NCBI GenBank assembly: GCA_009692425.1
Contig: SHZF01000003.1
Location: forward strand, 1-64,000
Length of the DNA: 64,000 nucleotides
Origin: Myxococcales bacterium
Lineage (GTDB): Bacteria > Myxococcota_A > UBA9042
Direction of reading: 5' to 3'
Numbering within the stretch: the first letter of the stretch is position 1; every line of letters begins with the position of its first letter. The notes beneath the pieces were generated by a model. The model was given only the letters and a program-made list of their open reading frames with translations. It had not been told where the DNA came from and did not search any database. Made by a program: the position numbers and the translations under genes. Of the stretch, positions 3,635 through 8,339 are shown in pieces.

Positions 3635-4111
3635 ATGCGACGCTGCCCACCGCGCCGACCCCGCCCGCCCGCCGAGGCCCCATTGCACCCCGACCGCCGC
3701 GCCCTGCTCGATGCCTGGACCACTGCTCCGCTGCAACAGCCGGGCGCCCTCGACCTCGCGATCCGCGCTGCCGCTGCCGCTGCCGGTGTCGCCGGTATCA
3801 AACCCCTCCCAGCGGAGGCCCAGGCGTTGGTCGCCAAGATCCACCACCACGCCTGGCGCATTGCCGACGCCGACATCGCCGCCCTGCGCGCGGCCGGCTG
3901 GAGCGACGAGCGCGTGTTCGAACTGGTCATCGCCAGCGCCGTCGGAGCCGGGGCCCAGCGCCTCAACGCCGGCCTGCAGGCCTTGGCGGCGGCCAGGTCG
4001 ACCCGCCCCGTCATTGCCGACCCAGCGCCCGTCACTTCTGACCCGCCGCCCGTCAATTCTGACACGGTGCCTGCCAGTTCCGAACCTGTGCCTGCAACTC
4101 CGAACCGGTGA
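3635..4111 (+). CDS. carboxymuconolactone decarboxylase/AhpD-like protein lacking the CxxC pair
   Basis: 158 residues. The central part (IADADIAALR, GWSDERVFELVIASAVGAGAQRL) resembles the C-terminal helical part of CMD/AhpD-family proteins. No Cys-x-x-Cys is present, so it is probably not itself a peroxidase; it may be a structural partner or paralogue of the selenoprotein that follows 12 bp downstream. The start is the ATG at 3635 just ahead of the first conserved helix. The last ~34 residues are a Pro/Ser/Thr-rich tail encoded by five degenerate 21-bp repeats ending exactly at the stop codon. Family assignment rests on short motifs and is moderate. Confidence 0.6.
   Translation: MRRCPPRRPRPPAEAPLHPDRRALLDAWTTAPLQQPGALDLAIRAAAAAAGVAGIKPLPAEAQALVAKIHHHAWRIADADIAALRAAGWSDERVFELVIASAVGAGAQRLNAGLQALAAARSTRPVIADPAPVTSDPPPVNSDTVPASSEPVPATPNR
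4007..4111 (+). repeat. five degenerate 21-bp tandem units forming the gene's 3' end
   Basis: Units start at 4007, 4028, 4049, 4070 and 4091. The first three begin CCCGTCA and the last two CCTGC. The fifth ends in the TGA stop of the preceding CMD-like gene. In frame they encode a PVxxD/E-type heptad that looks unstructured. Divergence between units suggests an old slippage expansion. Confidence 0.8.
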
Positions 4112-4123
4112 AGGAGTAGTCCG

Positions 4124-4714
4124 ATGCCGATGCGCCTGCCCAACGTCGAATCGGGTCACTCGCTGCCCGCCCGCCTCAAGCTGTTGGCGATTCGCGTGTT
4201 CAGCGCACGCCGGCCGCCCTCGGTCATCAAGACACTGCTGTATCGCCCCACGTTTTTCGGTGCACCGCTGTCGCGCGTGTTCCAGCACGCCCTGCGCGGA
4301 CCGTCGGACTGGTCGGTCGGCGAGCGGGAGCTCATGGCCGCTTTCGTGTCGAGCGTCAACTCGTGCGCGTTTTGAACGGGTGCCCACGGCGCGGTCGCGT
4401 CGTTGACCCTTGGCGATGCGGTGACCCAGGCCGTCTTGCTCGATTGGACCACTGCTCCCATCGATGAGCGGCTGCGCGCCACGCTCGGCTTTCTGCGCAA
4501 GCTCACTCTGGAGCCCGACGCGCTCACCGGCGCCGATGCCGCCGCGGTGCTGGCGACGGGCACGAGCCCGCAGGCCCTCGAAGACGCCATCGTAGTCGCC
4601 GCCGGTTTCAACGCGATCGATCGCGTGGCCGATGCGCTGGGATTCGAGGTGCCGGATGCGGCGGGGTTCGAGGCGTCAGGGCGCTCGCTGCTGCGGTTCG
4701 GGTACGTGGTGTAG
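4124..4714 (+). CDS. AhpD-like (CMD family) selenoprotein with UGA-encoded selenocysteine
   Basis: The reading frame from ATG 4124 meets TGA at 4373-4375 and continues in the same frame, without any shift, to a stop at 4712-4714, giving 196 residues. Across the TGA the protein reads SSVNSCAF-U-TGAHGAV. This puts Sec84 exactly where AhpD-family proteins have the second Cys of CxxC followed by xxxH (C81-A-F-U84-T-G-A-H88). The second half (FLRKLTLEP, ALEDAIVVAAGFNAIDR) is normal CMD sequence. A SECIS-like hairpin lies 17 nt after the UGA. AAGGAG at 4111-4116 is a good ribosome site 7 nt before the start. Likely role: thiol/selenol peroxidase or disulfide reductase. Selenoproteins of this family have been reported in other bacteria. 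A nonsense mutation is the alternative, but the exact replacement of a redox Cys argues against it. Confidence 0.88.
4386..4403 (+). promoter_or_regulatory. bacterial SECIS-like hairpin for UGA recoding
   Basis: Positions 4386-4392 (ACGGCGC) pair with 4397-4403 (GCGTCGT): seven pairs including one G-U, closing a GGUC loop at 4393-4396. The loop begins 17 nt after the UGA. Known bacterial SECIS elements, such as that of E. coli fdhF, place a GGUC-containing loop at nearly this distance. Folding was done by hand. Confidence 0.75.
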
Positions 4715-4807: not shown

Positions 4808-5515
4808 CTACCAGAAACACCCCTTCCAACTGCCCGAGTCGTCGTCGTGCGCCGCCTGCTGCATGTCGAGCAGTGTCTGTTCGAACAGGAGCCCCTTCGC
4901 GAACGGGTAGTACACCTGCGCCATGCCCTTGCGCACCAGCCAGGCGTTGACCAGGAACGTCTTGCCGGCCTGTTCGACCCAGGCATAGCGCAGCAACCGG
5001 TCGTACTTGTCCTTGTCGGTCTTGGTCGCGTCCTTGACGAGGCACACCTTGGCGTCCTTCGGCAGGAGTTCGATCAGCCGGGCCTTGGCCTCCTTGGCGC
5101 CGCACTCGGGACCACTATCGCCGGTCATCTCGGGCGTGTTGATGCCGAGCAACCGGACCCTGGCGCCGCCTGCGACCTCGAACGTATCGCCGTCATAGAC
5201 GTACCCGGCGGTGGTCCAGTCGGCCGGTTGGGCGCACGTGCCGGCGGGGGCCAAGACAAATTCTGACACGGTGGGCGCTGCGATGTCGTTGGCCGGGACT
5301 GCACCGTCAGTGACCTTGCTGGCGTCGGCAGGGCGCGTGGCTGCAGTCGCGTTGGCGTCGGCAGCCGTGGCGTCCTGGGCATCGACGTGGGCATCGACGT
5401 GGGCGGCGCCGTCGAGGCACGCGGCAGGTGGGGCGGCGGCCGCCGTGAAGTCGGCACACGCAGCGCACACCGCGCCCACTGCACACAACCGTTGAGAAGA
5501 CCATGCACCTCGCAT
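4808..5515 (-). CDS. staphylococcal-nuclease-like (thermonuclease) exported protein
   Basis: 235 residues. The C-terminal ~140 residues carry SNase-fold motifs: YDGDTF, RLLGINTPE, ECGAKEAKA, KYDRLLRYAWV and NAWLVRKGMAQVY. The arginine, threonine and glutamate typical of the active site are visible; the aspartate of the usual GIDTPE is Asn here. The N-terminus is hydrophobic with cysteines (CAVGAVCAAC) followed by an Ala/Asp-rich linker to about residue 95, which fits an exported, perhaps lipid-anchored protein, though the lipobox is poor. Likely a secreted phosphodiesterase acting on DNA/RNA. Start at ATG 5515 is the only one that keeps the hydrophobic N-terminus. Confidence 0.85.
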   Translation of the reverse strand: MRGAWSSQRLCAVGAVCAACADFTAAAAPPAACLDGAAHVDAHVDAQDATAADANATAATRPADASKVTDGAVPANDIAAPTVSEFVLAPAGTCAQPADWTTAGYVYDGDTFEVAGGARVRLLGINTPEMTGDSGPECGAKEAKARLIELLPKDAKVCLVKDATKTDKDKYDRLLRYAWVEQAGKTFLVNAWLVRKGMAQVYYPFAKGLLFEQTLLDMQQAAHDDDSGSWKGCFW

Positions 5516-5678: not shown

Positions 5679-8186
5679 TTACTTCACAAACACCCGCATC
5701 CGGTTCTGGCCCGTGCTCGCCGCGCCCGTGTTCAGGTTGAGCGCCAAGCCAAAGCCGACGTTGGCCTGTTCGGTCGCCGGCTCGCTCGTCACCGCGCCCA
5801 GGCCGCCCGCCCAGCCCGGGTCGTCGAAGCAACCCGACTCGCGATCGACCCGCCACGCCGGACCCCACGTGTGCTCCGGGTCGCCGTCCGTGCACTGCGT
5901 TGCGCTGCCGTCGTGATCGCCGGCATTGAGGTAGAGGTTCGTGTCGCACAGCTTGCCGCCCGCCTTCAGGGTGCCGGCCGTCATCGCCACGCCCTGGCCG
6001 GTTTGCGCGTAGCACACCGGACCGCCGACGGCCGCGATCTTCTGTCCCAACGAGAGCTTGCCATCGGAGACCGCGCCATAGGCCGCCCAGATGTTCGATG
6101 GTGCGTGCTGGAACATCGTTTGCGTCGCCGGCAGCGTCGCCAGCAACGGGGACGCGAAGTCCTTGTCGAGCGCCGCCACTGAGCCGACCGCCTGGCCATT
6201 GGACCACAGGGCCTTGTTGTTCCAACTCCAATGCACGGCACCATCGGCGCTGGCGACCGCGACCAGCGTCCAGCCACCCCCGCCGAGCCCCTGCTCGCAC
6301 CACGTCTGTACGGGTGCGGCGGCCCCTGCCTTGATCCACGCCAGTCCGCTTTTTGCGCCCGGCACGGCGGCCAGCAATGCGGCACAGCTCGCCACTGCCG
6401 TCGCTGGCTCGGCACCCGGGGAGCACGCGCCCTTGCCACACACGCCGCCACTGCCGCATGCCGTGCCGACTGGGGCGGGCGTGTGGCTACAGCCGGTCGG
6501 GCCGCACGCGTCGGTGGTGCACGCGTTGCTGTCATCGCAGTTCGATTTCGCGCCCGCGCACGCACCGGCCACGCACACGCCCCCCGCGACACATTTCGTC
6601 GCATCGCCGCACGGCACCGACGGCAGCGGCCGCTCGCACACGTGGCAGGGCAGGGCGGTGGCGACGCACAGGTCGTTCCATTGGCCGTTGGCAAGAAAGT
6701 GGACAGCGTCCTCCCCTTGCGCGGCGACGCTGCAACACGCCGTGCAGTTGTCGGGTTGGCCACCGCCCCAGTTCGTGTAGGCACCCGCCTGGCCGTCGGT
6801 CCAGACGAACTTGCCCTCTGCCGCCACGTCGTTGAAGCCGTGGAATGCCTGGGCACCCGCGCCGCACGTCGCCGCGACCGCCGCGTAGACCGCTGCGTTG
6901 TCCGCAGGCGACACGACGTGTGCGAGGTGCCCGCCCCAAGCGACGCAAGCCTGTTCGGCGGCCGCGAAGGCCGCGTTGGCGTTGAACGCCTTGACGCAGC
7001 GCCCGCCGATCACGCTGCCGTCACACGCCGGCGCAGCGGCACCCGGCTTGGCTGTGCCGACGCACTTGCCCGTCTTCACGTCGCAGGCGTCGTCCGTACA
7101 CGCGTTGCCGTCGTCGCACGGGCCGGCGGGACCCGCCACGCACTTGTCGATCTTGCAGGTGTCGCCGACGGTACACGCATTGCCGTCGCTGCAGGGGCCG
7201 TCGATGGCCTTCCACGTGCAGACCGAGGTCAGGGGGTCGCACTGATCGAGCGTACACAGCTTGCCGTCGTCGCATCCAGAGTTCGCTGGCGTGGCCTTGC
7301 ACGCGGTCCCGTCGCAGGCCTCGCCCACGCTGCACGGGTTGCCGTCGTTGCAGGGGCCCGCGACCGGCGCATGGCCGCAGCCGGTGGCGGGGGCACACGA
7401 GTCGGCCGTGCACGCGTTGGCGTCGTCGCAGAATTTGGCGATGGCGACGGGCGCGCCAGGCAGGCACTTTAGGAACGCGCACTTTTCGCCTGTCGTGCAC
7501 GCGTTGCCGTCGTTGCAAGTGCCCAGGTTCGCCACCCAACTGCACAGGCCGGCCGCGCACTGGTCGACCGTGCAGGAGTTGCCGTCGTCGCACACCGCCG
7601 GAGCCGCGCAGCCGCCAGAGGCCTCGGCGGCGACCGGCGTGTCCGCAGACGAGGGCACATCGGGTGTCACTGGCGCGTCGGGAACAACGGGCGCGTCGGG
7701 AACAACGGGCGCGTCGGGAACTATGGGCGCGTCGGGAACAACGGGCGCGTCGGGAACAATGGGCGCGTCTGCCATGATGGGCGTGTCGAGCGGAATCGCC
7801 TCGTCGAGGGCGTCCGGCACATCGGGGGCGACGTCATCCGCTGCGCCTGCCTCCTCGACCAGATCGGAGACTCCGACGCGCCCGACGTCTTCGTCGGTTC
7901 CGTCGGCCCCCAGGGCTCCGAGGTCGCCGCTCTCGCTGGCGCGAACCGTGACTTCCCCGCGCGGCGCCAGGTCTGGCGCGGAGCCGTCTGCGGACCGCGT
8001 GGGCTGCGCGGCGTCCGACCCGTCGAGGCCGCGGACACCAGCATTGCTGCCGTCGGTCACGATCGCGTCCGGGGCCGCGGGACCGGCCCCTGTCACGGGC
8101 GTATCGTCCGCACACGCTTGGACCATCACCAGCGCAAGTACGCCCCGCCATCCCCTTGCTCGCGCCGTCAGCTGCCCGTCGTCCAT
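5679..8186 (-). CDS. lipoprotein with DGNxCT repeats, C-type lectin-like and fibrinogen-like domains
   Basis: 835 residues from ATG 8186, chosen for the GGAG six bases upstream and the signal peptide with lipobox VQAC (Cys25). An Asp/Ala/Pro-rich linker with a VPDAP repeat follows. Cysteine-rich repeats of the CDDGNxCT type occupy roughly 195-365. A C-type-lectin-like domain lies at about 395-520 (TNWGGGQPDN, EDAVHF, GQWND). A fibrinogen-C/intelectin-like domain fills about 595-835 (WCEQGLGGGGWTLVA, CDTNLYLNAGDHDG, RMRVFVK at the end). These suggest a surface-anchored glycan-binding or adhesion protein. Domain names are from motif recognition; carbohydrate specificity cannot be told. Confidence 0.85.
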   Translation of the reverse strand: MDDGQLTARARGWRGVLALVMVQACADDTPVTGAGPAAPDAIVTDGSNAGVRGLDGSDAAQPTRSADGSAPDLAPRGEVTVRASESGDLGALGADGTDEDVGRVGVSDLVEEAGAADDVAPDVPDALDEAIPLDTPIMADAPIVPDAPVVPDAPIVPDAPVVPDAPVVPDAPVTPDVPSSADTPVAAEASGGCAAPAVCDDGNSCTVDQCAAGLCSWVANLGTCNDGNACTTGEKCAFLKCLPGAPVAIAKFCDDANACTADSCAPATGCGHAPVAGPCNDGNPCSVGEACDGTACKATPANSGCDDGKLCTLDQCDPLTSVCTWKAIDGPCSDGNACTVGDTCKIDKCVAGPAGPCDDGNACTDDACDVKTGKCVGTAKPGAAAPACDGSVIGGRCVKAFNANAAFAAAEQACVAWGGHLAHVVSPADNAAVYAAVAATCGAGAQAFHGFNDVAAEGKFVWTDGQAGAYTNWGGGQPDNCTACCSVAAQGEDAVHFLANGQWNDLCVATALPCHVCERPLPSVPCGDATKCVAGGVCVAGACAGAKSNCDDSNACTTDACGPTGCSHTPAPVGTACGSGGVCGKGACSPGAEPATAVASCAALLAAVPGAKSGLAWIKAGAAAPVQTWCEQGLGGGGWTLVAVASADGAVHWSWNNKALWSNGQAVGSVAALDKDFASPLLATLPATQTMFQHAPSNIWAAYGAVSDGKLSLGQKIAAVGGPVCYAQTGQGVAMTAGTLKAGGKLCDTNLYLNAGDHDGSATQCTDGDPEHTWGPAWRVDRESGCFDDPGWAGGLGAVTSEPATEQANVGFGLALNLNTGAASTGQNRMRVFVK
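7672..7779 (-). repeat. 18-bp tandem repeat encoding (V/I)VPDAP
   Basis: Six 18-bp units inside the lectin lipoprotein gene, five of them nearly identical (unit on the plus strand GGCGCGTCGGGAACAACG). They encode a six-residue spacer repeat. Perfect phase and high identity suggest length variation between strains. Confidence 0.9.
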
Positions 8187-8339
8187 TGCGATCTCCACCA
8201 CCGAACCCCACATCATGCGCTGTTGCTGCACGTGTCGTGCGAAGGTTTGTGAAGTCTACTCACCCGTTTTGCGCCGCGCACCGAAGGGGTCGTCGACGGG
8301 CCGCTCCTCAACCCTGCCGGCCGGGTGCGCTACGCTCCC

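Follow-up and report, generated by a model that had tools for sequence, protein, structure and literature searches.

A predicted AhpD-like selenoprotein with a conserved SECIS hairpin and an adjoining cysteine-less partner in a Myxococcales bacterium

Organization of the locus

The window analysed here, a 64,000-nt stretch of contig SHZF01000003.1 from the Myxococcales bacterium assembly GCA_009692425.1, carries two adjacent forward-strand genes, herein called B and A. Their features are as follows:

3683–4111, + strand: gene B (partner), 142 aa, no Cys; homologue of the C-terminal half of the CMD fold; TTG start inferred from the family N-terminus
4000–4110, + strand: 21-nt tandem repeat encoding the 35–40 aa C-terminal tail of the window's B, absent from relatives
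4111–4116, + strand: AAGGAG, ribosome-binding site of A
4124–4714, + strand: gene A (Sec-AhpD), 196 aa, ATG start, TAG stop; CMD/TIGR01926 homology, 19 full-length relatives
4328–4387, + strand: putative catalytic set of A, comprising E69 (4328–4330), C81 (4364–4366), U84 and H88 (4385–4387)
4373–4375, + strand: in-frame UGA, predicted to encode selenocysteine as residue 84; TGA or a Cys codon in all aligned relatives
4386–4403, + strand: SECIS hairpin with a 7-bp stem, ACGGCGC-GGUC-GCGUCGU; the family-conserved 6 bp pair 4387–4392 with 4397–4402, and the GGUC loop is 4393–4396

The TGA stop of B (4109–4111) overlaps the ribosome-binding site of A. The flanking genes, dnaE and an SNase-type nuclease gene, both lie on the opposite strand and are apparently unrelated to the pair. 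As separate observations, AATTCTGACACGGTG from the repeat region of the B tail is found again exactly at 5259–5273, inside the SNase gene, and positions 5679–8231 on the reverse strand encode an 850-aa protein with Dicty_CTDC Cys-rich repeats.

The in-frame UGA and its reading as selenocysteine

Gene A contains a single in-frame TGA, at residue 84 of the motif C81-A-F-U84-T-G-A-H88, where it takes the second position of the AhpD C-x-x-C (CAFU), as the first-pass annotation had proposed. Under the standard code the gene falls into an 83-aa and a 103-aa ORF, the split that had been expected of gene callers; in carrier genomes, standard-code annotation would give A as two fragments, and B as a hypothetical protein. 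Against NCBIfam TIGR01926, A scored 74.2 bits (1.1e-20), just below the curated cut-off of 81.8; the same model was matched by all 24 relatives, one of which (L058) exceeds the cut-off. The score against Pfam CMD PF02627 (23.1 bits) was marginally over the gathering cut-off of 23, and that against NF041238 (AhpD_rel_CFYUT selenoprotein), at 52.4 bits, was under its 175-bit cut-off.

Alignment of homologues, which had been suggested as a check, placed Sec in 22 and Cys in 2 of the 24 members at the UGA position. Among the 19 full-length relatives from the phylum (38–66% identical to A), 18 have UGA and one has Cys, and all five homologues from the order of the window genome carry one TGA at the same codon. 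The earlier statement that the frame is open and family-like on either side of the TGA was borne out by its conservation in homologues from independent genomes. If a Cys gene had acquired the TGA through nonsense mutation or sequencing error, leaving half-genes or a pseudogene, gene callers would likewise report two ORFs. Such an origin is nevertheless hard to reconcile with the recurrence of this TGA across independent genomes from many families, with a hairpin that is conserved and covaries, with a frame that is open and conserved on both sides, and with the presence of sel genes; it is considered extremely improbable, and the homologues refute it in practice.

The genome encodes SelA (457 bits), a full-length SelB, two SelD proteins and two tRNA-Sec (selC) genes with UCA anticodons, so that the search for the complete set of sel genes called for earlier had a positive outcome. 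Neither of the findings named beforehand as speaking against selenocysteine, absence of selA, selB, selC and selD or homologues uniformly lacking Cys or Sec, was encountered. If the genome had reassigned UGA, to Trp or Gly for instance, the frame would likewise be open across the codon. Such a reassignment conflicts with the role of UGA as a stop codon in conserved genes, B included, with the complete Sec machinery, with Cys at this position in the Cys forms and with a hairpin specific to the TGA forms. This alternative is more remote still than a sequencing error and is refuted by the ordinary UGA stops in the same operon. The reading as selenocysteine is preferred: the sequence evidence gives good support to A as an AhpD/peroxidase-related (CMD-fold) selenoprotein, with predicted Sec insertion at residue 84.

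At the level of the phylum, 46 of 379 genomes contain an A-type match; in 32 the gene carries TGA and in 14 it is present only with Cys. A selA gene was found in 31/32 Sec-form genomes versus 3/14 Cys-only genomes (Fisher P 3e-7). The sole Sec-form genome without detectable selA is a draft (G296), in which tRNA-Sec is present.

Two side observations concern the selenium genes themselves. The two tRNA-Sec genes of the window genome differ from each other (C68:6545-6637 and C7:4466-4558; L001 and L002), and the other positive genomes in the order have one; the second copy may reflect either duplication or assembly contamination. In the second SelD, the protein forms the C-terminal portion of a fusion with an NAD(P)/FAD oxidoreductase (Ndh-SelD; L076, G000:C84, 1-2000), a kind of fusion known from the GOS paper (PMC2398784).

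The SECIS hairpin

A 7-bp hairpin with a GGUC loop had been reported to start 17 nt past the UGA. The hairpin itself stands and its starting point does not: the stem begins 10 nt and the loop 17 nt after the UGA. The proposed likeness to E. coli fdhF holds, since both elements present GGUC as a small apical loop, 18 nt past the UGA in fdhF (MG1655 record) and 17 nt in A. In contrast, the fdhF stem is bulged, whereas that of A is uninterrupted and more GC-rich. A bacterial SECIS model, another of the checks proposed at the outset, is quoted in a recent review as a loop of 3–9 nt, a stem of 4–16 bp, G in the first two loop positions, a spacing of 16–37 nt and an MFE of at most -7.5 (PMC13188914). 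The A hairpin lies within this model on every count, with 4 nt, 6–7 bp, GG, 17 nt and -9.8 kcal/mol, the last being the energy of the hairpin by itself.

In a 45-nt segment from the UGA, the hairpin pairs have a predicted probability of 1.0. A 53-nt fold at the site, in which a competing structure is present, was no better than shuffles (MFE z 0.22), and the evidence for the element therefore lies in its conservation and not in single-sequence energy. In the 22 Sec homologues pairing is kept in 99.2% of pair cells, and 8 cells have changed on both sides versus 1.4 in shuffles (0/500). Compensatory changes occur at three of the six pairs (G-C to A-U, G-U to C-G and C-G to U-A), and covariation reached 0.236 versus 0.087 in shuffles (0/500), while slid pairs scored lower, the signal being destroyed. 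Furthermore, all 16 genes that encode HGAVAS use identical codons for these six residues over CACGGCGCGGTCGCGTCG, with adjacent codons in the same genes varying freely and protein identity reaching down to 44%; the naive probability of such identity, with kinship ignored, is 4e-24. The GGUC hairpin is lost in both Cys members inspected, L043 (CEWC) and the Ktedonobacter protein L022 (CPFC). The near-frozen element of these 16 genes would make a good natural series for testing SelB recognition.

The Rfam model SECIS_1 (RF00031) gave no match at A, nor in any control; RF00031 represents the non-bacterial SECIS type, so that the result is uninformative for A. In a search of the window's own genome for further copies of the A-type SECIS, only the A hairpin was significant.

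The partner gene

The cysteine-less partner noticed in the first-pass annotation is real: B is an upstream gene of 142 codons without cysteine, and its relatives, of about 100 aa and with no conserved cysteines, adjoin A. Within the peroxidase-related fold, the part to which B is homologous is the C-terminal half (2oyo 120–167; 6k40 117–182). When profiles of the B and A alignments were compared, B matched the fused domains (probability 99). A joint alignment of B rows with the fusion placed B on the A domain and was left out of the modelling.

B lies immediately 5' of A in 20/20 full-length subfamily members, the window included; tblastn recovered 19 of these, and a profile search the one in G296 (L036; C28:11126-11416), at a distance of about 12 nt. 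Among the pairs recovered by tblastn, the junctions vary between an overlap of 20 nt and a gap of 17 nt, and a 4-nt ATGA overlap is frequent. Every B-profile match in the phylum with E < 1e-13 adjoins or is fused to an A gene. In three proteins B is fused C-terminally to A, namely L022 (Cys, Chloroflexota) and L049 and L058 (both Sec). No other conserved neighbours beyond A and B were detected in the 8–12 kb around the 20 loci; the neighbour clusters that did emerge were rejected as antisense readings of A or as A itself.

B might be a mere operon neighbour of a selenocysteine-containing A, either translationally coupled to it or an independent small CMD protein, with no complex formed. Remoter Sec relatives, L032 among them, indeed have no B next to them, which indicates that the fold is able to function on its own. 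Against the neighbour-only view stand the 20/20 adjacency over many families, the frequent overlaps, the lack of any strong B match without A, the three natural fusions and a confident two-domain model of one of them, and this explanation is judged rather improbable. B is better viewed as what its genomic distribution suggests, a near-obligate and co-inherited half-domain homologue beside A.

Predicted fold and active site

The AlphaFold2 model of A (pLDDT 93.9, pTM 0.90) adopts an all-helical CMD fold. Its best PDB match is D. radiodurans AhpD (6k40), and 2prr, 3c1l, 2pfx and 2oyo are also matched (TM about 0.75). E69, C81, U84 and H88 are invariant or near-invariant among aligned A relatives. 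In M. tuberculosis AhpD, the attack on peroxide is ascribed to Cys133. The relay of that enzyme comprises Glu118, Cys130, Cys133 and His137 with the same spacing as in A (PMC3141380), which puts U84 at the Cys133 position. Of the five-residue AhpD proton relay (Glu, Cys, His/Tyr, Cys, His), A has counterparts to four, and the His132 (His/Tyr) position is taken by F83, with Phe in most members. Peroxidase or thiol oxidoreductase activity is what we infer for A. A function other than that of a peroxidase, as a Sec-using thiol-disulfide adaptor or in other CMD chemistry (lyase, decarboxylase or dehalogenase-like), is in keeping with the functional diversity of the fold, with the presence of the debrominase Bmp8 (6ohi) among the structural matches and with Phe in place of the relay His/Tyr. 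The nearest relatives are nevertheless of AhpD type and the E-C-U-H set is near-invariant with AhpD spacing, so that non-peroxidase chemistry is unlikely, if less so than the neighbour-only view of B.

For the A-B architecture, the protein modelled was the L022 fusion, a Cys protein from Chloroflexota, and not the window pair of two separate genes; its B domain was modelled by AF2 from three sequences. The model (pTM 0.91) aligned with Sestrin2 at TM 0.67 over both domains, compared with at most 0.50 for single-domain CMD structures (by query length). Its two CMD domains, one of them dead, are placed in a pseudo-twofold arrangement. Sestrin2 has itself been described as superposing on the 2PRR dimer (PMC4674687). 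This one modelled fusion is most simply read as pointing to a pseudo-homodimer of A and B in which a single Sec site would be active.

Proposed mechanism

Altogether, it is likely that B (3683–4111) and A (4124–4714) constitute one two-gene unit for a SelB-decoded Sec peroxidase or thiol oxidoreductase, acting as a pseudo-homodimer with a trimmed, dead protomer; the complex, substrate and reductant are the conjectural parts of this proposal. At the UGA at 4373, SelB with Sec-tRNA-Sec would bind the GGUC-loop hairpin 17 nt downstream and Sec would be inserted as residue 84, a step that is well supported by the sequence. By analogy with M. tuberculosis AhpD, the U84 selenol, aided by E69 and H88, would attack a hydroperoxide or disulfide, C81 would resolve the intermediate to a selenenyl-sulfide, and a dithiol reductant would recycle the enzyme. 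B, as a dead and trimmed copy of the fold, probably replaces the second protomer of a CMD homodimer; the resulting A/B pseudo-homodimer would resemble the paired halves of Sestrin2. Within such a complex, B may serve to stabilise or regulate A or to shape its substrate site, a role suggested by the obligate adjacency, the gene overlap, the fusions and the fusion model.

Distribution and history

In the order of the window genome, the A gene is present in 6/22 genomes and tRNA-Sec in 21/22; the genomes of the relatives are mostly fragmented drafts. In the tree, the window's A groups with L028 (65% identical), and the Cys member L043 is nested among Sec forms. Members from the window's family fall into three separate clades, with L031 nested in family f38 (support 98/92), which suggests that A has moved between families or that old paralogues have been retained with loss.

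Several related Sec genes were also observed. In G108, a second AhpD-like Sec gene (L042 551-1141; CFYU, 118 bits to TIGR01926) lies directly 5' of the B-A pair, so that two Sec genes and the partner stand in a row. More distant AhpD-like Sec proteins with CFYU or CEYU motifs (L059, L061, L062, L064, L066-L068 and L071-L073) have no partner. In some distant Sec relatives the candidate SECIS seems to lie further 3', as in L066, where GAUCUCC-GGUC-GGAGGUC places the loop about 25 nt past the UGA.

Comparison with known systems

AhpD-like selenoproteins of the CxxU type are on record from the Sargasso Sea study (PMC1088965) onward and in the GOS survey (PMC2398784), under the names AhpD-like 1/2; in addition, a 2026 review lists an 'AhpD-like protein TIGR01926 CxxU' selenoprotein, with MCB9421940.1 as its example (PMC13188914). 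From these entries the class is already known, in agreement with the first-pass annotation. The catalogued proteins share with A the CMD fold, Sec as the second residue of C-x-x-C and a bacterial SECIS just 3'. They differ in that the passages devoted to them mention no partner gene. As they were compared with A by description only, they may or may not belong to the same clade. Within open-access full text, no description of the A/B pair and no paper on a myxococcal selenoproteome was found. The enzyme class is known, and the arrangement of selenium plus a dead partner does not seem to be described.

The Cys forms of TIGR01926 (D. radiodurans AhpD 6k40, 2prr, 3c1l and 2oyo) resemble A in sequence (E 1e-20 to 5e-29, and 7e-30 for the sequence profile against the best solved structures), in structure, at the TM given above, and in the position of C-x-x-C. 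However, they carry Cys instead of Sec, are homo-oligomers and have no described B partner, and A falls just short of the family threshold. M. tuberculosis AhpD shares the relay spacing E-(12)-C-x-x-C/U-(4)-H, but its motif lies in the C-terminal half (another chain topology, with a weak fold match at TM 0.41–0.47), it uses Cys and it works with AhpC.

The closest architectural parallels are Sestrins and bacterial fused AhpD-like dimers, in which an active and a dead CMD domain together form a dimer-like unit; fused dimers with one Cys-less domain have been reported from Corynebacterium ureicelerivorans and Comamonas aquatica (PMC11429811). The acidic hinge DDYDY, through which Sestrin binds GATOR2 (PMC11429811), is absent from the B alignment. 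Moreover, A and B are mostly separate genes, the dead part measures no more than about 100 aa, Sec occupies the active site, and B is C-terminal in the fusions. A bolder proposal, which we hold as tentative and somewhat doubtful, is that the pair is a split-Sestrin-like bacterial selenoenzyme that arose independently of Sestrins, an obligate heteromeric peroxidase in which ligand sensing or gating of the selenol falls to the dead subunit. If A and B do form one enzyme, it would be a selenoenzyme that has a dead subunit dedicated to it, and would offer a bacterial model for the origin of the active/inactive CMD pair of Sestrins.
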